64,000 nt of DNA from Lachnospiraceae bacterium (GTDB taxonomy: Bacteria > Bacillota > Clostridia > Lachnospirales > Lachnospiraceae): positions 1 to 64,000 of the forward strand of contig JAAUZD010000047.1 of assembly GCA_014804785.1 (NCBI GenBank). Reading direction: 5' to 3'. Shown here piece by piece: positions 3,101 through 18,741 of this stretch; the first letter of the stretch is position 1, and each line of letters opens with the position of its first letter. The translations under genes and the position numbers were made by a program. The notes under the pieces are model-generated. The model worked only from the letters and a program-made list of their open reading frames with translations, did not search any database and had not been told where the DNA came from.

Positions 3101-4719
3101 CTCATTATCGGTGCCCCAACTGCTATTACTATGATTTTGATTCCCCGGAGGTAAAGGCTTATGCAGGAAATGCAGGCTGTGATATGCCGGATAAAATGTG
3201 TCCGGTATGTGGCAAGCCTTTGGTGAAGGATGGGTTTGACATTCCCTTTGAAACTTTTCTTGGATTTAAAGGGGACAAGGAACCGGATATCGATTTAAAT
3301 TTCTCAGGGGAATATCAAAGTAAGGCACATAAATATACAGAGGTTATTTTCGGAGCAGGTCAGACCTATCGTGCCGGAACTATTGCAACCCTGGCGGATA
3401 AGACAGCCTTTGGCTATGTAAAAAATTATTATGAAGAACGGGGAAAGCGGAAAAGAAACTGTGAGATTAACCGTATTGTAGGAGGATGTACCGGCATCAG
3501 AAGAAGTACAGGGCAGCATCCGGGCGGTATTATCGTCCTCCCTATGGGAGAGGATATCAATTCTTTTACGCCGGTACAGCATCCTGCAAACGATATGACT
3601 ACGGACATCGTGACCACGCATTTTGATTATCATTCTATTGATCATAACCTGTTAAAGCTTGATATACTGGGGCATGATGATCCCACTATGATTCGTATGC
3701 TTCAGGATCTTACCGGAATCGATCCAACCCAGATTCCCTTAGATGATCCCCAGGTCATGTCCCTCTTCCAGAACACTTCTGCGCTTGGGATTACACCGGA
3801 TCAGATTGACGGCTGCCCGGTGGGATCCCTGGGAGTGCCGGAGTTTGGGACAGAGTTTGTCATTCAGATGCTTCTTGATACTAAGCCAAAGTGTCTTTCG
3901 GATTTGATCAGGATATCTGGGTTAGGACATGGGACGGATGTATGGCTGGGAAATGCCCAGACACTTATTCTGGAAGGAACCGCGACTATTTCCTCTGCAA
4001 TCTGCTGTAGAGATGATATCATGATCTACTTAATCAATAAAGGGGTTGACAGCGCGCTGTCTTTCACCATCATGGAGAGCGTGCGTAAGGGAAAAGGACT
4101 GAAACCGGAATGGGAGGAGGCCATGAAAGAAAAAGATGTTCCTGACTGGTATATCTGGTCCTGTAAGAAAATCAAGTACATGTTCCCTAAGGCCCATGCA
4201 GCAGCGTATGTTATGATGGCATGGCGCATTGCGTATTGTAAGATTAACTATCCGCTGGCTTATTATGCATCCTACTTTTCTATACGGGCATCAGCATTTT
4301 CTTATGAGATTATGTGTCAGGGGCAGCAGCATCTGGAGAATGTCATGGCAGATTACAAAAGAAGAAGCGATTCCCTCTCCAAAAAGGAGCAGGATTCCTA
4401 CAGGGACATGAAAATCGTACAGGAGATGTATGCCAGAGGATTTGATTTTGTGCCGATTGATATCTTTTCGGCTCATTCCAGAAACTTTCAGATTGTAGAA
4501 GGAAAGCTGATGCCATCTTTAAACAGTATTGATGGATTGGGCGAAAAGGCGGCAGATGCGATTGTAGAAGCCGCTAAGGACGGGATGTTTCTTTCAAAGG
4601 ATGATTTCCGTCAGAGAACCAAAGTGTCAAAAACAATTGTTGATTTGATGGACAGTCTCCATCTTTTAGGGGATCTGCCCGAGTCAAATCAGATCAGCCT
4701 GTTTGATTTTGTATCATAG
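163..4719 (+). CDS. polC: DNA polymerase III alpha subunit, PolC type
   Basis: This is the Gram-positive replicative polymerase with built-in proofreading, 1518 aa, close to the usual PolC length. Visible in order are an N-terminal region, an OB-fold near residues 285-375, a PHP domain starting with VELHCHTKMSD near 387, a DEDDh exonuclease inserted in the PHP domain (FDIETTG near 495, later AHNAEFD and HHRAVDDA), two CxxC pairs near 984 and 1014 that should bind zinc, and the polymerase active-site motif PDIDLNFSG near 1040. The exonuclease-in-PHP layout and zinc cysteines separate PolC from DnaE. The ATG at 163 starts the protein in the family-typical way, although the upstream Shine-Dalgarno is weak. 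It seems to be transcribed alone here. No frameshift or missing catalytic residue was seen. Confidence 0.97.
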   Translation: MAKQFFEVFPTLKLDKKMHDLFEQVTVEKVSATKSRDFIRVTIGCDYLIPKETIYKVEAEIKKQFFSAHQVAVKLYERFHLSEQYTPEKLMNAYRDSILLELKNYSPIEYNLFKGADIAFPGDNHLELTVEDTILARNKAAELARILEKIFNIRCGFQVACQMEYKEKKTGKYKEEDDLKIARQVAEITARASGMRMPDGGEEIQGITAGKEVQNGARSMQESKKPETKETGLPKQGAAASFQGREKKGTRKNDFKRAVRRSDNPDVLYGRDFEEEAMPIEDIVGEMGEVVIRGKIISFDSREIKNERTILMFDVTDFSDTMTIKMFVHNEQVEEVKQGIKPGAFVKLKGITMIDKFDNELTIGSLVGVKRIPDFTTSRNDNSARKRVELHCHTKMSDMDGVSEAKDIVKRAYKWGHPAIAITDHGVVQAFPDANHVWEDLWKAEKEKRKEAGEDNPDKQDFFKIIYGMEAYLVDDLHEIVTGERGQDFETDFVVFDIETTGFSPVNNRIIEIGAVKVSGGEIADKYSTFVNPDVPIPFEIEKLTGINDSMVIDAPSIEEVLPEFLAFCEGAVLVAHNAEFDMSFIKENAMRQNLKREFTYVDTVGIARILLPHQGKHTLDAVAKTMGVSLENHHRAVDDAGATAEIFVKFIPMLKENGADTLAKVNAMGESSPDIIKKLPSYHAIILAENNIGRENLYTLVSESHLNYFSKRPRVPKSLLMKHREGLILGSACEAGELYRAILEGKSESEIARLVNFYDYLEIQPLGNNQFMIASERIPTINSMEDVKDVNRRIVALGEEFDKPVVATCDVHFLDPEDEVYRRIIMAGKGFTDADDQAPLYLRTTEEMLEEFSYLGSDKAEEVVITNTNKIADRIDVMAPVRPDKCPPVIPDSDKTLTDICYNRAHELYGEKLPQIVKDRLEKELHSIITNGFAVMYIIAQKLVWKSVEDGYLVGSRGSVGSSLVAFMAGITEVNSLSAHYRCPNCYYYDFDSPEVKAYAGNAGCDMPDKMCPVCGKPLVKDGFDIPFETFLGFKGDKEPDIDLNFSGEYQSKAHKYTEVIFGAGQTYRAGTIATLADKTAFGYVKNYYEERGKRKRNCEINRIVGGCTGIRRSTGQHPGGIIVLPMGEDINSFTPVQHPANDMTTDIVTTHFDYHSIDHNLLKLDILGHDDPTMIRMLQDLTGIDPTQIPLDDPQVMSLFQNTSALGITPDQIDGCPVGSLGVPEFGTEFVIQMLLDTKPKCLSDLIRISGLGHGTDVWLGNAQTLILEGTATISSAICCRDDIMIYLINKGVDSALSFTIMESVRKGKGLKPEWEEAMKEKDVPDWYIWSCKKIKYMFPKAHAAAYVMMAWRIAYCKINYPLAYYASYFSIRASAFSYEIMCQGQQHLENVMADYKRRSDSLSKKEQDSYRDMKIVQEMYARGFDFVPIDIFSAHSRNFQIVEGKLMPSLNSIDGLGEKAADAIVEAAKDGMFLSKDDFRQRTKVSKTIVDLMDSLHLLGDLPESNQISLFDFVS

Positions 4720-4943
4720 GCTGTATAATCAGATAAATTTATGCCTTAGACCTGGTTTAGCGATCAGGTGGGATATTTATGCAAGCTATGGCAGTGGAAA
4801 GCTGTCTGACAGGGAAAGGGTTCACCGTCCTTTAAAAGTGGGATGACGTTCGTGATGGGAAACTGTCGTTCCTGCTCATATCATTGATTTCCTTTTTTCT
4901 GTCTGTTATTTATATGCTGGATAAAGATGAAAAATAGGGAGAT

Positions 4944-6026
4944 ATGAATGATATGGATTCACAAAAGACAGAACGACTGCAGTATATTGATATTGCCAAA
5001 GCAATTGCCATTTTTCTGGTTGTATTAGGACATCCAAGAGCAGTAGAGGATTATGGGACGGTAGAGCGATTTTTATATGCATTTCATATGCCATTATTCT
5101 TTATGATGTCAGGAATTTTTTTAAAGCAGAAAAATCATTATGGCATTCAATCATGGAAGAACTTTTTCAAAAAAAACTTGCTGGGATTGTTTGTTCCTTA
5201 CATAATGTGGGCGGCTATTTATATGTCTTTTACCTACATCAATGTGGGGAAAGTGCTATATGGAAGCTGGATTGTGCTGCGAAATGCGCACTCGCTTAGT
5301 TCGCTTTGGTTTCTGCCGGTACTATTCATGGCAAGAACTTATCAGGAAGCCATGATGCATGTGGCATGGAAATTTAAATGGAATCCGCGAAAAGTTGCCT
5401 TTGTATGCGCATTTTTGTTTTTTGTACTGGGAATGATTCTGCCGCACAACAATACCGGTGACGGTATCGGTATGCCCTGGGGCTTTGATATTGCCTTTGT
5501 AGCCAGCACATTTATGATTTTCGGCTATCTGGGAAGACCCTATCTTGAAAAATTGGCTGAACGCGGAATTTTGCTGAAATTAGGGATTGCAGCGGCATCT
5601 CTTATTCTGCTTTTGATTGGCATACATTTTGCTCATTATTCCGAAGCTTATCCATTTATGCTGATGGCAAATGCTGAATTTGGAAGCCCAATACTTTGTT
5701 TAATCAATGGTTTTACAGGAAGCCTTATGGTCATTATGATTGCACAAATCATAAACCACTTTCTTAAGCATAGGAATTGGATTCTTTACATTGGGCAAAA
5801 TACAATGGGAATTTATCTCATTCATAAACAGTTTCTCCAAGGGCTTTATAATATGACCATCAATGTTGCGCCGGGGACGCCGTACCTTGTTCGGGCGATT
5901 GTCGTAACATGCATTGCGATTCTTTTTTCGTTATTCCTGCTGGGCATCCTTAGCAAATACATAGCAGAAATCCTTGGCAGACCATCAGTAGAAAAGAACT
6001 ATGAAGAAAAGTTGATGGAGTCATAA
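4944..6026 (+). CDS. Acyltransferase 3 family membrane protein
   Basis: A 360-aa polytopic membrane protein of the acyltransferase-3 family (the OatA/WecH/NolL type), which moves acyl groups onto cell-surface sugars. The N-terminus has the family signature YIDIAKAIAIFLVVLGH, with the conserved His near residue 30, followed by HMPLFFMMSG. About ten hydrophobic segments follow, with IYLIHKQFL near residue 298. There is no fused SGNH domain, unlike OatA. AGGGAG at 4936-4941 sits very close to the ATG at 4944; the in-frame ATG at 4953 has a more normal spacing and could be the real start. The substrate cannot be told from sequence. A terminator follows at 6083, so it is probably monocistronic. 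Confidence 0.85.
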   Translation: MNDMDSQKTERLQYIDIAKAIAIFLVVLGHPRAVEDYGTVERFLYAFHMPLFFMMSGIFLKQKNHYGIQSWKNFFKKNLLGLFVPYIMWAAIYMSFTYINVGKVLYGSWIVLRNAHSLSSLWFLPVLFMARTYQEAMMHVAWKFKWNPRKVAFVCAFLFFVLGMILPHNNTGDGIGMPWGFDIAFVASTFMIFGYLGRPYLEKLAERGILLKLGIAAASLILLLIGIHFAHYSEAYPFMLMANAEFGSPILCLINGFTGSLMVIMIAQIINHFLKHRNWILYIGQNTMGIYLIHKQFLQGLYNMTINVAPGTPYLVRAIVVTCIAILFSLFLLGILSKYIAEILGRPSVEKNYEEKLMES

Positions 6027-9762: not shown

Positions 9763-9847
9763 GCGGAAGTGTCGGAACTGGCAGACGAGCAAGACTAAGG
9801 ATCTTGTGAGCATTGCGCTCGTGTGGGTTCAAGTCCCATCTTCCGCA
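9763..9847 (+). tRNA. tRNA-Leu (anticodon AAG)
   Basis: An 85-nt class II tRNA. The acceptor arms GCGGAAG and CTTCCGC pair, the discriminator is A, and CCA is not encoded. The anticodon stem CAAGA/TCTTG encloses the loop CTAAGGA, giving anticodon AAG. A long variable arm (GAGC...GCTC) and the TTCAAGT T-loop fit tRNA-Leu. Its 3' end is the attachment site of the mobile element that follows, and the integration leaves the tRNA intact. Confidence 0.95.
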
Positions 9848-9850
9848 GTG
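9827..9850 (+). repeat. attL core (tRNA-Leu 3' end)
   Basis: The 24-bp sequence beginning GTTCAAGTCC and ending TTCCGCAGTG is repeated exactly at 17175-17198. It covers the T-loop to the tRNA 3' end plus GTG, the classic attachment core of tRNA-targeting tyrosine recombinases. Confidence 0.92.
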
Positions 9851-9860
9851 GTTGAAAGTG

Positions 9861-9898
9861 AGGAAACCTTGATAAATACTAAGGTTTCCTTATTTTTT
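9861..9898. terminator. Terminator between tRNA-Leu and integrase
   Basis: AGGAAACCTT (9861-9870) pairs with AAGGTTTCCT (9881-9890) and is followed by TATTTTTTG. It serves the tRNA and possibly the convergent integrase gene. A near-copy follows the right attachment site at 17203. Confidence 0.8.
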
Positions 9899-9902
9899 GT
9901 TT

Positions 9903-11255
9903 TCAAGCATTTTGAACACGCTTGAACACGTTGTTGATTTTGCTGTTAATAGCCCTTTCATAAGCATCGGCACGATTTTCAATGGAAGTCGTAGCGTGCA
10001 TATAGTATTTTTCCGTTGTAGAAAAATCTTTATGTCCTGCAAACGTCCTGATTTCTTCATTTGATAACGCTCCCGACTCGCCCATATTAGAAATACAGGT
10101 TTTTCGGATAGAATGATTTCCCTTTTGTGTGGTCTTAATCATGCGATTCAAACGCCGTAAAACATTGTTGATTGCATCATTGTGCATCCGTTCGCCGTGT
10201 TTATCCAATAATAGATATTCTGAATGAAAATTCCGTTCTTCATTTGCCCTCACTATCATTGCCATAAATTCTTTTGCGTTTCTTGTTAAAAACAATTCTC
10301 TGTCAGCATTTGGCGTTTTTCCATGAGAAACAACCTCATAACCGTTCCGAACGATTTTCCCATTATCCAACTTATCATAGTGCTTAATTTCCTGCCGTTG
10401 AATATGTACTAATGTTTCTGAAAAGTCACTGGTTTTTAATGCAACAACTTCTCCGACCCGCAACGCTAAAGTGAAGTTAAGACATACACCGAGATAGGCT
10501 GTATTTCCTGTCTTTTCATATTGTTTCAATGCCATTTTGATAAGTTTTTCTTCTTCATCATCAACATAGACTTGTTCCGCTGGGGCTTTTTTATGCTCTA
10601 CAGCAAACTTTTTGCAAGAAATACCATGCACCATTCTGGAAACATTACTATTTGTGAGATTTGACTCAATCGCAAAATCATAAAGCATATTCATAAGTGA
10701 TTTCATTTCTTTATATTTCCTAGAAGTGAGTTTATGCTCTGCAATTTTATCCAAGAACCAGCTTTTCAGCATTACAACGGTTATCTCACTAAACTTACAT
10801 TTGACAATATCATCATCTTTGTAATATGTTTCCCATGCCCAGTTTAGCTTGTGCGCATTTGCAGGCGAAGTTTCCTTACCCTTATAATCTAAGAATAAAG
10901 GATATAACTTTTCAAAAGTATCTATTACAGGCGGTTTTTCTTCCATTTGCTTATAATAAGCGACTATTTTGTTTTCAAGGTTCTCTTTTGTTACCGCCGT
11001 TATAGGTTTTCTTTTTTCTCCGTCCTTTTTAGGGGGTAAATACGTCCTATAACGCTTGTCATGCTCCGAATAATAAATCTCATAGGGGTGTTGTTCTAAA
11101 TAATATTCTTTTTCCATAGTTATAATATCATCTAGCACATCATCTATCGTATTCAGCTTAACAAGTTTATAAAACAGTGTCAATGCTTCATCTTGTGATA
11201 TATGCTTTATTGTTTGCAATATATTTATAGCTTGTGAAATAGAAATATCAGACAT
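9903..11255 (-). CDS. Tyrosine recombinase (element integrase)
   Basis: A 450-aa site-specific integrase of the phage/ICE tyrosine recombinase family, which inserts and excises the element at the tRNA-Leu 3' end. Catalytic residues are visible: Arg in LRVGEV (about 266), HSIRKT (His 381, Arg 384), AGHKD (His 408) and Tyr in KYYMH (about 417). The N-terminal 100 residues hold an arm-binding-type domain with YLPPKKDGEKRK, and residues 110-200 a SAM-like core-binding domain. A GGGGGTG Shine-Dalgarno lies upstream of the ATG at 11255. The 3' end of the gene abuts the tRNA, and TTGAACACG arm-type repeats overlap its last codons. Confidence 0.95.
   Translation of the reverse strand: MSDISISQAINILQTIKHISQDEALTLFYKLVKLNTIDDVLDDIITMEKEYYLEQHPYEIYYSEHDKRYRTYLPPKKDGEKRKPITAVTKENLENKIVAYYKQMEEKPPVIDTFEKLYPLFLDYKGKETSPANAHKLNWAWETYYKDDDIVKCKFSEITVVMLKSWFLDKIAEHKLTSRKYKEMKSLMNMLYDFAIESNLTNSNVSRMVHGISCKKFAVEHKKAPAEQVYVDDEEEKLIKMALKQYEKTGNTAYLGVCLNFTLALRVGEVVALKTSDFSETLVHIQRQEIKHYDKLDNGKIVRNGYEVVSHGKTPNADRELFLTRNAKEFMAMIVRANEERNFHSEYLLLDKHGERMHNDAINNVLRRLNRMIKTTQKGNHSIRKTCISNMGESGALSNEEIRTFAGHKDFSTTEKYYMHATTSIENRADAYERAINSKINNVFKRVQNA
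9912..9930. repeat. Left pair of TTGAACACG repeats (candidate integrase arm sites)
   Basis: TTGAACACG occurs twice in direct orientation, 1 nt apart (9912-9920 and 9922-9930), inside the 3' end of the integrase gene. A matching pair lies near the right end at 17095-17114. Paired repeats near both ends suit arm-type binding sites of the integrase. Confidence 0.6.
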
Positions 11256-11334
11256 AACAACACCCCCTCTCTTTTAAAATTTATTAAGCTGATTCTTTCA
11301 TTCAAAATATCTGCCGAAAATACTTTATATATTT

Positions 11335-12588
11335 TTATGCGTTCCCAGTTTCCCCGCATGGAGCTTCACGAAACATGTCTTCAAACAAATCTTTTAGGGT
11401 GCTGGCGGGGCAGTCCTTTTCCCGGTATTTCTTGGAATAGCTGTTCTCCTTTTCAGCATCGCCTACGGGCAGGTATATTTTTTCCTTCCTGTCATATTCG
11501 ACCGCCCTGATATGGTTTTCATCCATTTCAATGGTCAGCGTAATCCTCCGCAGTAGCTGTTCCAGACCGTCAATGATATTAGGGGTAAAGCGGCGGAATA
11601 ACTGCCAGTAGAATTCTACTGGGTCATATGGGGATGTAATAAGTATCAGGTCACAGACAAGGGGCTTGTCGCTGTATCTGGACGGAGCCATGACCTGACT
11701 ACCGAAAGGGTCAAGGATTCGCAATAAATCCGCATATTTCATCATGTCAGCCCGGAGTTCGTCTATTATTATGGTATGCTCACCGGAATAATTCTGGAAA
11801 ATATCACGACTGCTTCCCGTAATGAAATAAGACTGGTTTGTTTTTTCTGCGTATTCTCTGGCCAGGCTTGTCTTTCCTGTTCCCGCTTCCCCGCTAATCC
11901 ATATGACTTTTATCCTTTTCCCGCTCTTTTTCATTTCTTCCCGCCATTCAGCCGCCTGAAATTGCAGGTGTTTACACCATACGTCTTCAATCTGGCGTTT
12001 CGCTATTCCGTACTGACTGCCGCTTAGCAGTTTTTCCACTCCCTCTTTCGTGATTTCCCCTTTATAAAGGGAATCCAGCAGTTTTTGACAGTTTGCGGTC
12101 TGCCTGCTCCGTTTGACTTCTTCCGCGATTCTCTGCATTTCTTCCTGATAATCAAAGTTTGCTGTGACTTCTTCTGGGGAATACTGGCGCTTGCTGATAG
12201 AACTATCTGTGGCATGGATAAGGTAAGAATAGCCGTTTTCTGCTTTTCCTTTCCACATTTGCAGGTACTGCGGTTTGTCCCCGAGTGCTTTGGCAATGCT
12301 GTTGAGGGAACGGGCATTTTCAAAGGACATCATCACATGCACATGGTCTTCTTCGGGTTCTCCCTTTGCATTGACATCACTGTCATGCAGGATAAGTGCA
12401 TATTTTTTCGGCGCAATCTCTATCAGCAGTTCAATTAAGTGTTCAATGGTCTTAGCTGGGAGTCTGTTCATCTGTTGTGCGTACATCATGTTTTTACATC
12501 TGACAGCTTTTTTGGAGCTATCGGTCTTTTCGCTATTGGACTTTTGGCTATCGGTCTTTTCAGCATCAGTCTTTTCACTATCGCTCAT
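11335..12588 (-). CDS. Rep protein: HUH nicking domain plus SF3-like P-loop domain
   Basis: A 417-aa replication or mobilization initiator. After a low-complexity N-terminus (residues 4-26, repeats of S/D-x-EKT), residues 30-150 read as a Rep_2-like HUH endonuclease: MMYAQQMN as motif 1, DHVHVMM (His 82 and His 84) as the metal-binding HUH, and NGYSYLIHAT (Tyr 120/122) as the nicking tyrosine motif. Residues 225-330 hold an NTPase with Walker A GEAGTGKT (233-240), Walker B TIIIDEL and ILITSPYDP, like the SF3 helicase part of CRESS-DNA and related plasmid Reps. AAAGGAG sits 8 nt before the ATG at 12588. It would start rolling-circle replication of the excised circle and may double as relaxase, which is inference. 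Confidence 0.85.
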   Translation of the reverse strand: MSDSEKTDAEKTDSQKSNSEKTDSSKKAVRCKNMMYAQQMNRLPAKTIEHLIELLIEIAPKKYALILHDSDVNAKGEPEEDHVHVMMSFENARSLNSIAKALGDKPQYLQMWKGKAENGYSYLIHATDSSISKRQYSPEEVTANFDYQEEMQRIAEEVKRSRQTANCQKLLDSLYKGEITKEGVEKLLSGSQYGIAKRQIEDVWCKHLQFQAAEWREEMKKSGKRIKVIWISGEAGTGKTSLAREYAEKTNQSYFITGSSRDIFQNYSGEHTIIIDELRADMMKYADLLRILDPFGSQVMAPSRYSDKPLVCDLILITSPYDPVEFYWQLFRRFTPNIIDGLEQLLRRITLTIEMDENHIRAVEYDRKEKIYLPVGDAEKENSYSKKYREKDCPASTLKDLFEDMFREAPCGETGNA

Positions 12589-12589
12589 T

Positions 12590-12756
12590 TTGGTGTCGCT
12601 CCTTTCTTTGATTTTACGGTGTTTCTGGATGTTTCTGACACCGTGACACTTCGATTTTCTGGCGGTATAACAAGCCCACCGCCAGAAAACATAAGCTTTT
12701 GAAAGATTTCTGCATTGACACCACGATTCCGGCGCGCCGGAATCGTGGATGTTTTT
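12590..12756. other. Three stem-loops upstream of rep; candidate replication/transfer origin
   Basis: This intergenic stretch contains three strong inverted repeats: ACGGTGT (12616-12622) with ACACCGT (12638-12644); TTTTCTGGCGGT (12655-12666) with ACCGCCAGAAAA (12678-12689); and a 28-bp palindrome, CCACGATTCCGGCG plus its complement, at 12721-12748. The last is followed on the plus strand by a T-run, so it may act as a terminator for plus-strand transcripts. The density of hairpins directly upstream of an HUH Rep gene is typical of a double-strand origin or oriT. The nick site is not identified. Confidence 0.5.
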
Positions 12757-14121
12757 TCATTCTTTTGTGGCGTAGTATTCGGTCATCAGTCTTCTTAGTT
12801 CCGCGTAGACTTCAAATCCCATTTTCGGAAAATGGAGGTAACACGGCGTATCGTGTACGCCGTCCGTGGAGGAGAACCAGCAGTCACCCACTCCATGATT
12901 ACGTCCCAAGTTCAGGCACTTCAACCGCTCACTGTTCCAAATCAGTCTGGCTTCTTCCGCCGTAGGCTTGAACAGGATTTTTGTTGTCATTGCTGATTTG
13001 AGCATAGAGGGCAGTCCGCCTTCTTCTACTGACGCTTCCGCTATGGAGATGATAACAAAGCATCCGGCAGATGCACCCATAGTTATGATACGTTTCAGCG
13101 AGCCTTCAAAACCTGCAAGATTGAATCCCCCGTCCCCCTTGACAGGTTTCCGCAGGAGGCATTTCAGCGTCACATATTCATCAATGAACAGAAAACTGGG
13201 GTTCATTCCTGCGTCCCACCATTTGACCGCGTCCCCGGTTTCTTCTGAAAGCTGGTTCAAAACTGCCTGTCTCGTCCTCATCGTGTCTTCAAATTCTTTC
13301 ATCTTCAACATGACTGCTTCTGCATCCCCGTCCGGGCTTACTGTAAGGGTACGGGGGATTCTTGACAGTTCCGCAAGTTTCGGGTCAATGATTATAACAT
13401 TGGAGTCATGCCCGTCCCGTCCGTGCTGTAAGACTGAAAGCAGGATTGCAATAATGCCCGTAGTTTTCCCGCTCCTTGTCTTCCCGGCAACAAGGATACT
13501 GCCGGAGGTCTTCAGGTCAATATATGTTTCCGTGTCAATCGGGATTTTCGTCTTGTCAGGCGATTTCAGCCCATCCGGAGAATCCAATGTAAGGCTTTTG
13601 TCAGCCAGCACATCCACGATACGGTAAGTCACACAGTTAAAGGCTTCATCCGCTTCACTATTGATTGCCGCATACTGTCTGTACTTGCCGTTTATTGCAG
13701 ATGATACGGCGGGCGCAATCTTCAATAATTCCTCTGCTGTGCGTGATACGGTATTGATAGTAATGTCAAATATTGTGCCGCTTATTTTCCGGCACTTAAC
13801 AGGCGGGAGCAGTTCACCGTCTTTGAAGCCTAACGGGTTTCCATACCTTGGGTCAAACAGCCTTTTTTTGACACAGTATTCTATCCGCTTTCTGTCTCCG
13901 CCCCCAACAAACAGTACTGTCCATACCGTGAGCAGAATAGCCGTTATTGCCGCGGATATGGCAGAGGCTTTACCTAAAAAAAGTCCCAGCCTGAACACTT
14001 CCGGCTTGCATAAGTTTTTTATCAGGTAAAAAGATAATGAAAAAAAGAGGGAGAATCCCCCCGCCGCAAGAATACAAGCGGCGGGAGAGATGTAGGGTCT
14101 GTCTTTCTTATAGTGCATCAT
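12757..14121 (-). CDS. FtsK/TcpA-like DNA translocase (coupling protein)
   Basis: A 454-aa membrane-anchored ATPase. Two hydrophobic segments lie near residues 12-36 and 52-72. A FtsK/SpoIIIE-type motor follows with Walker A GKTRSGKT (213-220), NVIIIDPKLAEL, and Walker B PSFLFIDEY (about 306-314). Proteins of this size and layout serve as coupling proteins (TcpA) or as the sole DNA pump (actinomycete TraB) in mobile elements. GAAAGGGGGAAGA precedes the ATGATG at 14121. The next gene upstream on the same strand ends 18 nt away, so they are co-transcribed. Whether it works with a host-encoded secretion system cannot be told. Confidence 0.88.
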   Translation of the reverse strand: MMHYKKDRPYISPAACILAAGGFSLFFSLSFYLIKNLCKPEVFRLGLFLGKASAISAAITAILLTVWTVLFVGGGDRKRIEYCVKKRLFDPRYGNPLGFKDGELLPPVKCRKISGTIFDITINTVSRTAEELLKIAPAVSSAINGKYRQYAAINSEADEAFNCVTYRIVDVLADKSLTLDSPDGLKSPDKTKIPIDTETYIDLKTSGSILVAGKTRSGKTTGIIAILLSVLQHGRDGHDSNVIIIDPKLAELSRIPRTLTVSPDGDAEAVMLKMKEFEDTMRTRQAVLNQLSEETGDAVKWWDAGMNPSFLFIDEYVTLKCLLRKPVKGDGGFNLAGFEGSLKRIITMGASAGCFVIISIAEASVEEGGLPSMLKSAMTTKILFKPTAEEARLIWNSERLKCLNLGRNHGVGDCWFSSTDGVHDTPCYLHFPKMGFEVYAELRRLMTEYYATKE

Positions 14122-14139
14122 GATTCTTCCCCCTTTCTT

Positions 14140-14493
14140 TTACTTGTTAGGTGTGATGACCCTGATGTTGTCAGCTGTTACAGACAGCTGGTTGCGGTAA
14201 TCGCCGTATACAGTGGCGGTTACATTGACAGGTTCTATATAAGCACCTGCCGGGACGTTCACGTCTTTGCTGACCTTAAAAGTTATTTTTTCAAAAGCAT
14301 TTGTGACGTGTTCCCCGTTGTTCTGCTTGTAAGGAGTAATATCCTTTGTGATAAGGGCTTCATACTTTTTGCCCATATGAGCCTTAGTATTATAATCTAC
14401 CCATTCGCTGATGCTGATGACCTGAAACGTTTTCCCGTTGGCAAACCCCTCCCAGTCAAATTTTAAAAACTGATTCAATTTTTTTAATCCCAT
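14140..14493 (-). CDS. Element hypothetical protein, OB-fold-like
   Basis: An approximately 117-aa protein lying between the small upstream ORF and the translocase gene. Start ATG 14493 is chosen because GGGAG (14502-14506) lies 8 nt before it; an in-frame ATG at 14511 would overlap the Shine-Dalgarno. Sequence hints are LNQFLKFDWEGFANGKTFQV at the N-terminus and alternating strands ending VNVTATVYGDYRNQLSVTA and IRVI. This suggests a small beta-barrel such as those of single-strand-binding helper proteins found next to element rep genes. No catalytic motif is seen, and the function is unproven. Confidence 0.7.
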   Translation of the reverse strand: MGLKKLNQFLKFDWEGFANGKTFQVISISEWVDYNTKAHMGKKYEALITKDITPYKQNNGEHVTNAFEKITFKVSKDVNVPAGAYIEPVNVTATVYGDYRNQLSVTADNIRVITPNK

Positions 14494-14587
14494 CTTTTTT
14501 TCTCCCTTCAAAATTTATTTTTGTTTCAATGTTACTTTCAGGCAGTTTTGCGCCAGTGCCCGGGGCATAGAACATAAAAACATACAT
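14456..14587 (-). CDS. Small overlapping element ORF (43 aa)
   Basis: A short ORF beginning MYVFMFYAPGTGAKLPES behind a very strong Shine-Dalgarno (GAAAGGAGG, 8 nt before ATG 14587). It overlaps the start of the next gene (14493) by 38 nt in another frame, a layout compatible with translational coupling. No domain is recognised. The main support is the ribosome binding site. Confidence 0.4.
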   Translation of the reverse strand: MYVFMFYAPGTGAKLPESNIETKINFEGRKKDGIKKIESVFKI

Positions 14588-14686
14588 CTGCAATCCTCCT
14601 TTCTGCCCGTTAATGTTAGAATAGATTAAAGCGTGTTTATTCATTTGAACATTTCCGGGCTTTTTAAATTTTTTTTAAACAGGGCA

Positions 14687-15016
14687 TCAGTGTTCTGCTC
14701 TTTCAATAACATCAGAGAGTCTGCACCCCAGCGCATCCGCAATATTCTTAGCAGTTATCAGGTCAATATGATAACTGCGTCCGGACACATAGCCTTTATA
14801 GGTGGAAGGACTGATGCCTGCTTTTTCCGCTACATATTTCTGTGTATATTTTCTGTAATCTTTCCAGCGTTTTCTCCGCTGTTCTTCCAAGTCTCTGATT
14901 ACTTTTTCTATGAAAGCCTGCTGTGGAATACGTTCCATATCACGGTCTAAACGTCTGGATTCCCAGCTTTGCTCTTCTGCGTGGTTTTTGTTTAAACTTA
15001 CATTCTTGTTGTGCAT
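14687..15016 (-). CDS. XRE-family helix-turn-helix protein (element)
   Basis: A 109-aa protein whose C-terminal half is an XRE/Cro helix-turn-helix: TQKYVAEKAGISPSTYKGYV followed by DLITAKNIADALGCRLSDVI. The N-terminal half is charged and helical (EEQRRKRWKDYRKY). It is the first gene of the minus-strand rep/transfer module and probably controls it. The region upstream contains no other gene on that strand for about 550 nt. Confidence 0.82.
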   Translation of the reverse strand: MHNKNVSLNKNHAEEQSWESRRLDRDMERIPQQAFIEKVIRDLEEQRRKRWKDYRKYTQKYVAEKAGISPSTYKGYVSGRSYHIDLITAKNIADALGCRLSDVIERAEH

Positions 15017-15514
15017 ATGAGTTACCTCATATGATGCGCATCATAATTACTTTCTTTTTTTGTTGGATATCCTGTTGTTTTCAGTTTCATTTCCGCATTT
15101 GCAACTGCGGGGCGGTCACTGCCGCCTGTACCGTCATAATGAGAGGGTACTTTGTGAAAGTTCACAAAAAATTTACAAATTCATCTCTAAAGTTATCCCA
15201 TTCAAAAACCGATATTTTTTAAGAGGCTTTGAGGGATGTGAGATAAAAATTTGTAATTTTTATTCGTATTTTAAGAGGGGTACGGGGACTTGTCCCCGTG
15301 AAATAGCGGCGCGTATGCGGCGCGTAACTATTAAGGGAAAAAGGGTTCGGGATTAGTCCCGTGAAGCGCGAAGCCGTAGGGCTGAGCGCGACCTACACAT
15401 ATAAAAAAGTAATGAGTGGGTTAATATAAGAGAGATAAAAGAAATGTAAAAGTGAGAGTGTGCGGAAGCCGCTCTTTTTCTATTTTGGAAAAATCAAAAT
15501 GTATGTAAATAAAA
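15017..15514. other. Structured noncoding region, GC-rich hairpin cluster
   Basis: No convincing gene lies here. AT-rich sequence surrounds a GC-rich island at 15276-15400 with a perfect stem ACGGGGAC-TT-GTCCCCGT (15282-15299), CGGGA-TTAG-TCCCG (15347-15362), and GCGC..AGCC/GGCT..GCGC (15366-15390). This hairpin cluster upstream of the rep module is a second candidate for an origin of replication (dso or sso) or oriT. The promoter of the 14687 gene should also be here. Confidence 0.5.
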
Positions 15515-15542
15515 AAACTGCCTGTGTCAATACAGGCAGTTT
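15515..15542. terminator. Bidirectional terminator after secreted-protein gene
   Basis: AAACTGCCTGT (15515-15525) pairs perfectly with ACAGGCAGTTT (15532-15542). It is flanked by A7 on the left, giving a T-run on the minus strand for the 15573-16283 gene. Confidence 0.85.
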
Positions 15543-15572
15543 TCTTTATGGTTTCTGTTGCTTTTAATTGTC

Positions 15573-16283
15573 TCAATTATTACTCGGTCTTGTACCACGT
15601 TCTGTGCTATCTACAGGTGCATCAATATTAAATCCTGATGTCTGACGGGTTAAAAGTCTTACTTCGCCATTCACCTTGATACCCATTACGTCGAGCTCAG
15701 TTCCAAGGTAAGTTTCATCACCTTTTAAAACATTCACAGCGAGCTTTTCAGCATCAAGATTTTCATCAACTTGGATATTTGCATACCACATTCCATTTGC
15801 ATCCTGTTCAAGAGTTATGTTTTTGTATGCTATAATATTATCTTCTGCGTCCGTTACGTTGAAGGTAATCTTACTGATACCACAGTGATATACCTGATAA
15901 GATGTGTGCTCGTCATTCATAACAATACGGAATTTCTGACCGCCTGCTACACCGACAGTTACATCATTTGGATTGTTTACTGTAGCAGAGTTATCAGAAG
16001 AGCTATTTCCGTTACCAGATGAACTACTGTTTCCATTGTCAGATGAACCACCAGAACTTGAAGAGCCTGTAGAACCTGTAGAGCCTGAACTGCTGCTGGT
16101 AGAACTTCCAGAAGTTGAACCAGAGTTATCTGAATTGCTCGGTCTTGTTCCACGATCTGTTGTGTCTTCAGGTGAATTAGCATTGAATCCTAATGCATGT
16201 GTCGTCATAGATGCCATAGGTGAAGCTACAACAAGTGCCATTGCGAAAGTTCCAGCTAAAAGTTTGTAAATGTTTTTCTTCAT
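15573..16283 (-). CDS. Secreted Ser/Gly-rich protein with identical-type N- and C-terminal motifs
   Basis: A 236-aa exported protein of unknown function. A signal peptide covers residues 1-30 (MKKNIYKLL...ATHA-like cleavage near MTTHA). The mature protein begins with a motif of the form GFN-x3-P-x-D-x-T-x-RGTRPSN and, after a Ser/Gly linker (about 50-100) and a beta-rich domain (about 110-215), ends with the same motif (GFNIDAP...RGTRPSNN). There is one cysteine, no sortase signal and no lipobox. GGAGGT lies 9 nt before the ATG. It is divergent from an XRE gene across a palindromic operator. I recognise no family. Possibilities are a released peptide precursor, an adhesin, or a competition factor of the element. 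Confidence 0.8.
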   Translation of the reverse strand: MKKNIYKLLAGTFAMALVVASPMASMTTHALGFNANSPEDTTDRGTRPSNSDNSGSTSGSSTSSSSGSTGSTGSSSSGGSSDNGNSSSSGNGNSSSDNSATVNNPNDVTVGVAGGQKFRIVMNDEHTSYQVYHCGISKITFNVTDAEDNIIAYKNITLEQDANGMWYANIQVDENLDAEKLAVNVLKGDETYLGTELDVMGIKVNGEVRLLTRQTSGFNIDAPVDSTERGTRPSNN

Positions 16284-16409
16284 AATTCATATACCTCCAT
16301 GTTTTAAGTTTGTCTTACGTTGTTAAAATCAGTTATATATTTTTGTTTATTTTCCTTATATATTCACCCCTTTCGCTACATATATAAAAATACTTTCGGG
16401 AAGCATATT

Positions 16410-16500
16410 ATAAACTATATAGGCATTTAAAAGCCTATATAGTTTATTAAATAATAGCATAGTAGCCTATACAATTCAAGTATAATTAAATTATATAGGC
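16410..16500. promoter_or_regulatory. Operator region of divergent XRE / secreted-protein genes
   Basis: A perfect inverted repeat of 15-bp arms lies at 16410-16424 (…CTATATAGGC) and 16433-16447 (GCCTATATAG…), with an 8-nt spacer. The same half-site returns as GCCTATA at 16465-16471 and TATAGGC at 16494-16500, bracketing a TATAAT at 16481-16486. The placement between divergent genes and over the promoter of the XRE gene argues for autoregulation and control of the secreted protein. Confidence 0.75.
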
Positions 16501-16511
16501 AGGTGAAGGAT

Positions 16512-16847
16512 ATGAATTACTATGAGATAGGACAACGTATACGTAAATATAGAAAGGCATATAATTTCTCTCAAGAACAATTAGCGGAGAAAGTTGGAAT
16601 ATCAACTACACATATGAGTCATATTGAAACTGGAAATACTAAATTAAGTCTTCCAGTTTTTGCTAAAATTGCTAATGTTTTATCAGTACAAACAGATGAA
16701 CTATTATACGATATTCCACAGATGAATAAAACTGTTATAAAACACGAGTTGACAGAAATAATAGATTCATGCTCTCAACAAGATATGTATATAATTTTAG
16801 ATGTACTAAGAACGCTCAAATCAGCATTAGAAAAATATAAAAATTAA
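16512..16847 (+). CDS. XRE-family transcriptional regulator
   Basis: A 111-aa repressor-type protein. The N-terminal helix-turn-helix reads IGQRIRKYRKAYNFSQEQLA then KVGISTTHMSHIETGNTKLS, the standard XRE pattern. The C-terminal 40 residues are helical and may mediate dimerisation. ATG 16512 is preferred, with AGGTGA 5 nt upstream; a GTG at 16503 is possible. It probably binds the TATAGGC/GCCTATA sites in its own promoter and represses or activates the divergent secreted-protein gene. It is AT-richer than the rep module. Confidence 0.88.
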   Translation: MNYYEIGQRIRKYRKAYNFSQEQLAEKVGISTTHMSHIETGNTKLSLPVFAKIANVLSVQTDELLYDIPQMNKTVIKHELTEIIDSCSQQDMYIILDVLRTLKSALEKYKN

Positions 16848-17094
16848 AAATATTTATTGATGTTGAAGTGTATCCTTATAGTTGTACATATTGATAACGG
16901 ACGTTCGCCCAGCCGACCCACCGCCCTGTTAGGAACCGTCGCTCTGGGCGTTCTGCTTTCGCAGAAACACTGTGTATTGATAAGGATAATCAAGGAAAAG
17001 GTAGATGTGAATACGAAAGGTTTTCTGGGCTTGCGTTAAAAAGAAAGGGAGATTCCAGTTGTTTATGTTGGAATCTCCTATGTCTCATAGGTGT
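16848..17094. other. Right-end structured region of the element
   Basis: No supported gene. An isolated GC-rich stretch at 16898-16970 forms CGCCCAG (16906-16912)/CTGGGCG (16944-16950) and TTCTGC-TTTC-GCAGAA (16951-16966). A further hairpin, GGAGATTCCA (17048-17057)/TGGAATCTCC (17069-17078), follows. A 60-codon ORF spans 16857-17039, but it has no clear ribosome binding site. It may be a structured RNA or terminator region. Confidence 0.4.
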
Positions 17095-17114
17095 TTGAAC
17101 ACGTAATTGAACAC
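17095..17114. repeat. Right pair of TTGAACAC repeats (candidate integrase arm sites)
   Basis: TTGAACACG (17095-17103) and TTGAACACC (17107-17115) mirror the pair at the left end (9912-9930), 60-70 nt inside the right att core. Confidence 0.6.
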
Positions 17115-17174
17115 CTTTATGATAGAGGTATGCTAGAAGCCTTTCTATATATAGGATTTGCGAAAGAGGAATGT

Positions 17175-17198
17175 GTTCAAGTCCCATCTTCCGCAGTG
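17175..17198 (+). repeat. attR core (copy of tRNA-Leu 3' end)
   Basis: An exact 24-bp copy of 9827-9850. Only the 3' end of the tRNA is present here, so this is not a tRNA gene. It marks the right border of the element. Confidence 0.92.
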
Positions 17199-18185: not shown

Positions 18186-18410
18186 ATGACAGCAATCAGA
18201 CAAGAAGCAGTACAAATGTTGGAGAAAGTACCAGAAGATAAATTAAGCTATGTAATTCAGATTATGCAAGGAGTGAATGGTCTTTTGGGAATGCCCGAAA
18301 CAAAAGCCAAAAGTAGCATAGATCTTGAACAGTTTATTATGCCGGCAACGGAACGAGGACAGGATGCAGATAACTATATAAGGGAGCTGAGAGATAATGA
18401 CAGAATTTAA
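18186..18410 (+). CDS. Antitoxin-like protein upstream of PIN toxin
   Basis: A 74-aa protein beginning with a helical segment (EAVQMLEKVPEDKLSYVIQI) and ending with an acidic tail (ERGQDADNYIRELRDNDRI). This is a common antitoxin type paired with PIN toxins in Clostridia. GGAG sits 7 nt before the ATG, and its stop overlaps the PIN start by 14 nt, a typical coupled toxin-antitoxin layout. It is probably intact, although its partner is broken. Confidence 0.75.
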   Translation: MTAIRQEAVQMLEKVPEDKLSYVIQIMQGVNGLLGMPETKAKSSIDLEQFIMPATERGQDADNYIRELRDNDRI

Positions 18411-18741
18411 GAGAGTCTTTGTTGATACTGCGCCAATTATTTATTATCTAGAAAACAGTGCTTTATATGTGGATTTGATAAAGAAATTTTTTACAAAGTG
18501 TCTTGAGGAAAATATTCAGATAGTAACTTCTGCCATTACCATTGAGGAGTATCTCGTGCTTCCATATGTAAGTGGAAAGGTGGAACTTGCGGATAATTTC
18601 AAAAGATTTATTGAATATATGAATATAAAGGTGGTAGATATTGATTCTAATATTGCAGAGCAAGGAGCAAAGATAAGAGGGAAGTATAAGCATTTTTTTT
18701 TTGCACGTACAACGTGTCAGCCCGTCTGGTCTTATGACTAA
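18397..18741 (+). pseudogene. Truncated PIN-domain toxin (VapC-like)
   Basis: A 114-aa reading frame beginning RVFVDTAPIIYYLE, the first acidic motif of a PIN-domain RNase. SAITIEEYLVLPY carries the second (Glu). After GAKIRGKYKH the frame runs through a T10 tract (18692-18701) and ends in unrelated residues (TTCQPVWSYD). The distal acidic motif (usually MDA.QLA … TND) is missing; a weak trace, LMTNANQ, is readable in another frame. I infer a frameshift plus loss at the homopolymer, making the RNase inactive. A sequencing error in T10 is possible. Confidence 0.75.

Follow-up and report, generated by a model that had tools for sequence, protein, structure and literature searches.

A predicted exported protein with a duplicated motif in an integrative mobilizable element of Lachnospiraceae

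Here we analysed a window (the whole stretch of 64,000 nucleotides of DNA from a gut Lachnospiraceae bacterium) and found that an integrative mobilizable element (IME) carries, beside a divergent regulator gene, the gene of a protein in which one 19-residue motif occurs twice. We tentatively interpret this gene as IME cargo encoding an exported protein that is controlled by a repressor and presents a tag to a partner. Comparison with relatives suggests that the motif is a family trait and that only the window copy bears it at both ends. One slot of such IMEs, usually beside a divergent regulator, repeatedly houses genes for predicted exported proteins, one family of which has a tag in two matched copies. 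Small elements could change the encounters of their hosts with other cells if this tag binds a partner.

The protein and its mobile element

The element is bounded by direct repeats that are 26/27 identical (Table 1), and no mating channel gene is present among its genes. A reading made from the sequence alone had described the secreted-protein gene as cargo next to a repressor, and the gene indeed lies inside a mobile element and adjoins a divergent helix–turn–helix (HTH) gene. A minus-strand promoter-like match (16479–16451) overlaps both of the palindromes that separate the two genes; promoter-like matches overall numbered 16, against 10.3 expected. The stem-loop that marks the boundary with the backbone genes was predicted for the plus strand, and the T run on the minus strand was read from the sequence. 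As separate observations, the start of the Rep gene (12517–12591) contains four repeats with a spacing of 15 nt that encode a low-complexity N terminus, and two small overlapping genes at 18186–18741 are, by eye, antitoxin-like and PIN-type toxin-like.

Table 1 Features of the element and of the secreted-protein gene (window positions)
Feature	Position	Strand	Basis
tRNA-Leu	9763–9847		
Integrative mobilizable element, 7.4 kb	9824–17198		27-nt direct repeats (9824–9850, 17172–17198) holding the tRNA-Leu 3′ end
Tyrosine integrase	9903–11255	−	PF00589, 2e-13
Rolling-circle type Rep/relaxase with helicase domain	11335–12588	−	PF01719, 2.6e-14, and PF00910, 8.3e-8, both above cut-off
FtsK-like coupling protein	12757–14121	−	PF01580, 4.8e-13 (FtsK/SpoIIIE family)
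Small protein without family match	14140–14511	−	No Pfam family above cut-off, no NCBIfam match; likely counterparts by eye in L052, L056, L068, L080 and L081
HTH regulator of the element backbone	14687–15016	−	PF01381, 7.9e-11
Stem-loop terminator between secreted gene and backbone genes	15514–15543		13-pair stem
Secreted protein with duplicated motif	15573–16283	−	Open reading frame, 236 aa
Motif copy 2, residues 217–235, GFNIDAPVDSTERGTRPSN, C terminus	15579–15635	−	Motif profile and alignment of copies
Beta domain, about residues 104–211	15651–15974	−	AF2 model; relatives' profile matches 15654–15971
Ser/Gly-rich linker, residues 51–103	15975–16133	−	Read from sequence; residues 1–103 pLDDT <50
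Motif copy 1, residues 32–50, GFNANSPEDTTDRGTRPSN, mature N terminus	16134–16190	−	Motif profile and alignment of copies
Signal peptide, residues 1–30, ending THA	16194–16283	−	By eye; HA ending common to 15/15 family members
Two imperfect palindromes with GCCTATATA-like half-sites, likely operators	16405–16500		16405–16452 (88%) and 16465–16500 (83%)
Divergent HTH regulator, probable repressor	16518–16847	+	PF01381, 5.8e-14; RstR family, 9.6e-15, under its cut-off

The claim that the same motif opens and closes the protein was borne out: the copies agree at 13/19 residues, and a single residue is left after copy 2 before the protein ends. At the DNA level the pair extends over 62 nt with 79% identity (15579–15640 versus 16134–16195). 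With residues 51–101 of the linker excluded, the best internal pair of 19 residues scored 76, and none of 500 shuffles scored above 38; a profile made from the two copies matched, in the own genome, those two places only (E up to 10). The protein is probably exported, on the basis of a signal peptide judged by eye without a predictor. The mature protein had been taken to begin with the motif; the motif does follow the signal, but the probable start is the L that stands one residue ahead of GFN. Reading by eye revealed no LPXTG, lipobox or membrane helix, and the LPXTG, hydrophobic stretch and positive tail of a sortase anchor are absent at the C terminus; because no anchor was seen by eye, surface attachment is a guess.

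A Ser/Gly linker and one beta domain had been placed between the copies, and structure prediction had been suggested as a check. Both parts are supported: the linker is evident in the sequence, and modelling predicts one folded beta domain. AF2 models built with 7-row alignments gave block pLDDT values of 83–91 for residues 121–210 and 56–68 for residues 101–120 of the window protein, and of 80–90 for residues 111–210 of the relative L052; in both models the motif copies and the linker are below 50 and predicted to be disordered, and the domain is folded. Nothing in the models suggests docking of a motif on the domain. The protein has no Pfam or NCBIfam match at or above curated cut-offs, the first of 9 domain rows likewise gave only matches below them, fold searches with the beta domain gave no clear match, and no fold or family indicates a function for it.

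The family and the position of the second copy

In total, the family comprises 15 proteins, the window protein and 14 relatives, 13 of which are from the window's own genus; this genus includes Parablautia muri, and the named family member is from Parablautia muri D42-62 (L056). A profile of the domain matched 13 places in 9/37 genomes of the genus and, among 392 genomes of the order, the own genome only. The family count adds to these places L054, the record of which says Lachnospiraceae only, and L064, a contig-end fragment without the full domain. Loci L052–L057 were obtained from the second of two scans of genome contigs, the first of which confirmed no relative; L052 and L053 are near-duplicates, and L010 and L013 share their N-terminal part. 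A full-length profile matched 20/397 genomes of the taxonomic family, two of them from the window's genus. We rejected the other 18 as relatives: their matches cover only model positions 1–135 of 241 and amount, by eye, to a signal peptide plus stretches that are acidic or Ser/Thr-rich. No relative was confirmed in scans of viral contigs or found by tblastn in plasmids and phages, and a literature search found nothing on the RGTRPSN motif or on the combination of linker and motif.

In all 15 members the signal peptide ends in HA, and a motif begins no more than 6 residues after it. This motif is of the GFN/GLN type in seven (the window protein, L052, L053, L054, L055, L057 and L064) and GFD in L056, and the remaining seven, the group B proteins, have a different, DDG-type motif; the GFN and DDG types share their position, which does not show common descent. 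A hidden Markov model search with the motif alone had been proposed, and across the 37 genomes of the genus a profile of the GFN type recovered 10 places in 6 family members (E <1e-3) and 3 further weak matches (E 0.25–0.80). The motif does recur in the family, but the profile missed the DDG-type members and L056. At one locus (L061; G007:C78, about 4163–5656), the tandem paralogues L013 and L008 have motifs that are unlike each other, each duplicated within its own protein.

The motif occurs once in 7/15 members and twice in 8/15, which count as 6 independent proteins given the pairs L052/L053 and L010/L013. The second copy is internal (first copy, second copy, domain) in seven of the eight, and C-terminal in the window protein only; the family as a whole therefore does not follow a rule of one copy at each exposed end. 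The distance between starts is 46–48 residues in L052, L010, L008 and L014 (4/6 independent proteins), 37 in L064 and 185 in the window protein. Homologues with the motif once or at random positions had been named as evidence that the duplication is incidental. This applies to the terminal arrangement and not to the motif itself, the positions of which are non-random: every member has its first copy just after the signal peptide, and the spacing is regular in four of the six independent two-copy proteins.

The copies of one protein mostly resemble each other. In 5/6 independent two-copy proteins (the window protein, L052, L010, L008 and L014), each copy is most like its partner in the same protein; the exception is L064, the copies of which agree at 7/19 residues and match the copies of other proteins better. 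With 18 copies compared (L053, L013 and L057 were excluded as near-duplicates), the true pairing ranked 1/15 by total in each of two groups. Matched copies could also follow from recent duplication, and for this reason we examined silent change. The copies of L008 differ at 24/75 nt versus 6/25 residues and those of L014 at 27/84 nt versus 7/28 residues, and for each of these pairs 0/2,000 neutral simulations were as conserved. The simulation, from which L064 and L013 were excluded, gave P = 0.17 for the window pair and borderline values for L052 (0.07), L053 (0.04) and L010 (0.05). As judged from these substitutions, selection on the copy pair is clear for two DDG-type relatives, L008 and L014, and is not shown for the window protein. 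Over the first 7 codons, window copy 1 shares 18/21 nt with copy 2 of L052 versus 16 with its copy 1, and window copy 2 shares 19 nt with copy 1 of L052 versus 15 with its copy 2; the remaining codons match within the protein (29/36 versus 16–18). An old pair could have had its order swapped in the window protein and its tails made alike, a reading that rests on few bases.

A slot for exported proteins in related elements

Searches with the FtsK-like protein yielded seven elements: five in 4/37 genomes of the genus (E up to 1e-20) and two in genome G158 (E up to 1e-60), the only genome besides the own among 299 of the taxonomic family. In each of the seven, the end opposite the integrase carries a gene the product of which has, by eye, a signal peptide; element ends were verified in only four. 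The slot is occupied by this family in 4/7 (the window element, L052, L056 and L059) and by other sequence in 3/7 (L068, L080 and L081), and the slot gene lies between verified att repeats in the window element, L052, L059 and L081. A 27-nt query was used for att repeats in 8 loci and found them in 6 (the window element, L052, L053, L054, L059 and L081), with none found in L057 and L068; L055 and L056 have no tRNA and no fitting repeat. Two of the elements, L059 and L068, have an interrupted FtsK coupling gene. The other occupants are exported proteins, as judged by eye, at L068:5208–6236, L080:8833–10002 and L081:2836–4191. Two of these three are cell-wall-repeat-like by eye, one with a choline-binding-repeat match (E = 2.1e-4) that does not reach the curated cut-off. 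No divergent regulator is present within 1.3 kb upstream in L068.

A divergent small DNA-binding protein is encoded in 7/8 group A loci, the exception being L054. It is an HTH protein in the window element, L055 and L056 and a 55-aa CopG-like protein in L052, L053, L057 and L064, assigned by Pfam for the window element, L052 and L055 and by likeness for the others. L053 (160–2094) looks like a 1.9-kb mini-element, in which 27/27 att repeats surround only a CopG-like regulator gene and the secreted-protein gene; a misjoin in this metagenome assembly is possible. A degenerate repeat of the last codons of the domain lies 3′ of its secreted gene. In L057 the secreted gene is intact, and neither backbone genes nor att repeats were identified. 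The family occurs on at least two IME backbones, one with a PF01719 Rep and one with a G2P-type Rep (L054). The group B gene of L059 sits on an IME, and other group B genes are near VirD4-like genes (L060 by Pfam, L062 and L063 by eye) or ClpP-like genes (L060 by Pfam, L063 by eye).

Several further features were recorded around the family. The secreted gene is preceded by ECF sigma genes at L060:7355–9841, L061:1360–3828 and L064:3674–5791, with the sigma part fused to a long further region in L060 and L061; we rejected this arrangement as a general rule because it was seen at these three loci and not upstream in the others. Toxin–antitoxin-like pairs are located near the secreted gene at L059:3303–3853, L054:8799–9553 and L052:8313–8967, the last of these outside the att repeats; the pair types are DUF4258 with MqsA-like, Phd with ParE-like and RelB with ParE. 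A CxCG…H-x3-H tail is alike in otherwise unlike exported proteins (L052 residues 219–263 and the C termini of L068 and L083). Two strands and a helix are predicted for it in L052 with low confidence, and a 2-row profile of the tail (L052/L053 and L068 being alike) matched 1/299 genomes of the taxonomic family; the tail is absent from the window protein.

Interpretation and known systems

Our tentative explanation is that of a tag-bearing cargo protein. The protein would be exported under the control of the divergent, element-encoded repressor; the flexible Ser/Gly linker would act as a tether between the folded beta domain and a short linear tag at the mature N terminus, and this tag may be the ligand of one partner, probably at a cell surface. 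In members with two matched tags, these could provide two-point (avidity) binding of the same partner, and in the window protein the second tag would stand at the C terminus instead of ahead of the domain. The sequence itself shows the architecture, the family, the matched copies, the element and the adjacent regulator; export, repression, binding and surface location are inferred, as is the purpose, which may be adhesion, mating contact or exclusion. The sequence-only reading had taken the terminal duplication for a repeated signal, and its option of a binding epitope is favoured by the own-partner match in five of the six proteins and by the protein-level match in L008 and L014, both of the DDG type; the terminal duplication as such appears to be incidental to the window protein. 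The tag explanation loses some weight, and neutral duplication gains some, because the clear cases of selection are of the DDG type and the ends are unverified in 3/7 slots.

The strongest rival, which we regard as somewhat unlikely, holds that the motif is only a conserved mature start that serves cleavage or export, and that the N-terminal region was duplicated internally, without harm, wherever a second copy is present. The constancy of the N-terminal motif, the presence of a second copy in just over half of the members and in varying places, the drift between the copies of L064 and a window pair that is compatible with a fairly recent copy all fit this. However, L008 and L014 retain an internal second copy despite heavy silent change, and an internal copy would have no role in signal cleavage. 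It is improbable, in our assessment, that the protein is a transfer or exclusion factor, the tag of which labels carrier cells and thereby either promotes mating contacts or excludes a further copy of the same element. Such a factor would account for the presence of the family on different IME backbones and beside the VirD4-like genes of larger elements, for an exported-protein slot in every FtsK-found element and for a motif that varies among elements and is mostly matched within one protein, but the IME lacks a gene for a mating channel, the secreted gene has its own terminator, and the intact gene of L057, with no backbone or att repeats found, would also be compatible with a benefit to the host cell. 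Also quite improbable is that the tag of exported proteins from elements of this genus is an identity label that differs per element, with paired tags kept matched as a two-point ligand that co-evolves with one partner.

Multi-copy pheromone precursors suggest, by analogy, that the protein could be a precursor from which the motif is released as a signalling peptide, in two doses where there are two copies. Copies that differ among proteins and mostly match within a protein would agree with this, and terminal placing in the window protein would permit release from both ends; nevertheless, the second copy is internal in nearly all two-copy members and the element has no matched peptidase family. 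RRNPP-type signalling (Rap/Phr, AimR) relies on a long regulator with an HTH and a peptide-binding repeat domain, and none was found in the window element: it has no regulator of peptide-receptor size, its HTH proteins are short (about 110 aa; two tested as 109 aa each), and an AimR match covers residues 9–59 only, below the cut-off. We consider peptide release very unlikely. Polymerization, also put forward in the sequence-only reading, with one end as donor and the other as acceptor, would make use of the two like ends of the window protein and is hardly credible: the ends are alike rather than complementary, the motif is predicted to be disordered in both models, its profile has no other place in the own genome, almost half of the members have one copy, and C-terminal placing is unique to the window protein.

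Among known systems, ICEBs1 encodes the exclusion protein YddJ and the secreted peptide PhrI. The window protein is comparable as a predicted exported product of a conjugative-type element that would be tied to element biology; it differs in being far longer than a Phr peptide and in belonging to an element with no mating channel gene. The slot proteins of G158 (L080 and L081) are similar in having a signal peptide (by eye), a divergent small HTH gene and a location, within a related element, at the opposite end from the integrase, but they are cell-wall-repeat-like, with no duplicated tag seen and no sequence likeness by eye. Cargo of IMEs, in the sections of a review on which we draw, includes resistance, restriction, toxin–antitoxin, transporter, protease and antibacterial peptide genes, together with many unknown genes (PMC5704250). 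Streptococcal IMEs with a Rel_PF01719-PF00910 relaxase, mostly accompanied by a TcpA coupling protein in the portion of the source that covers them (PMC5357655), are the closest counterpart within that portion: the tyrosine integrase, PF01719 and PF00910 in one protein and site-specific insertion between direct repeats that characterize this kind of IME were all found in the window element, which also has an FtsK-family protein. Compared with the streptococcal elements as described there, the window element has a Lachnospiraceae host, and its cargo is a predicted exported protein encoded beside a divergent regulator (PMC5357655).
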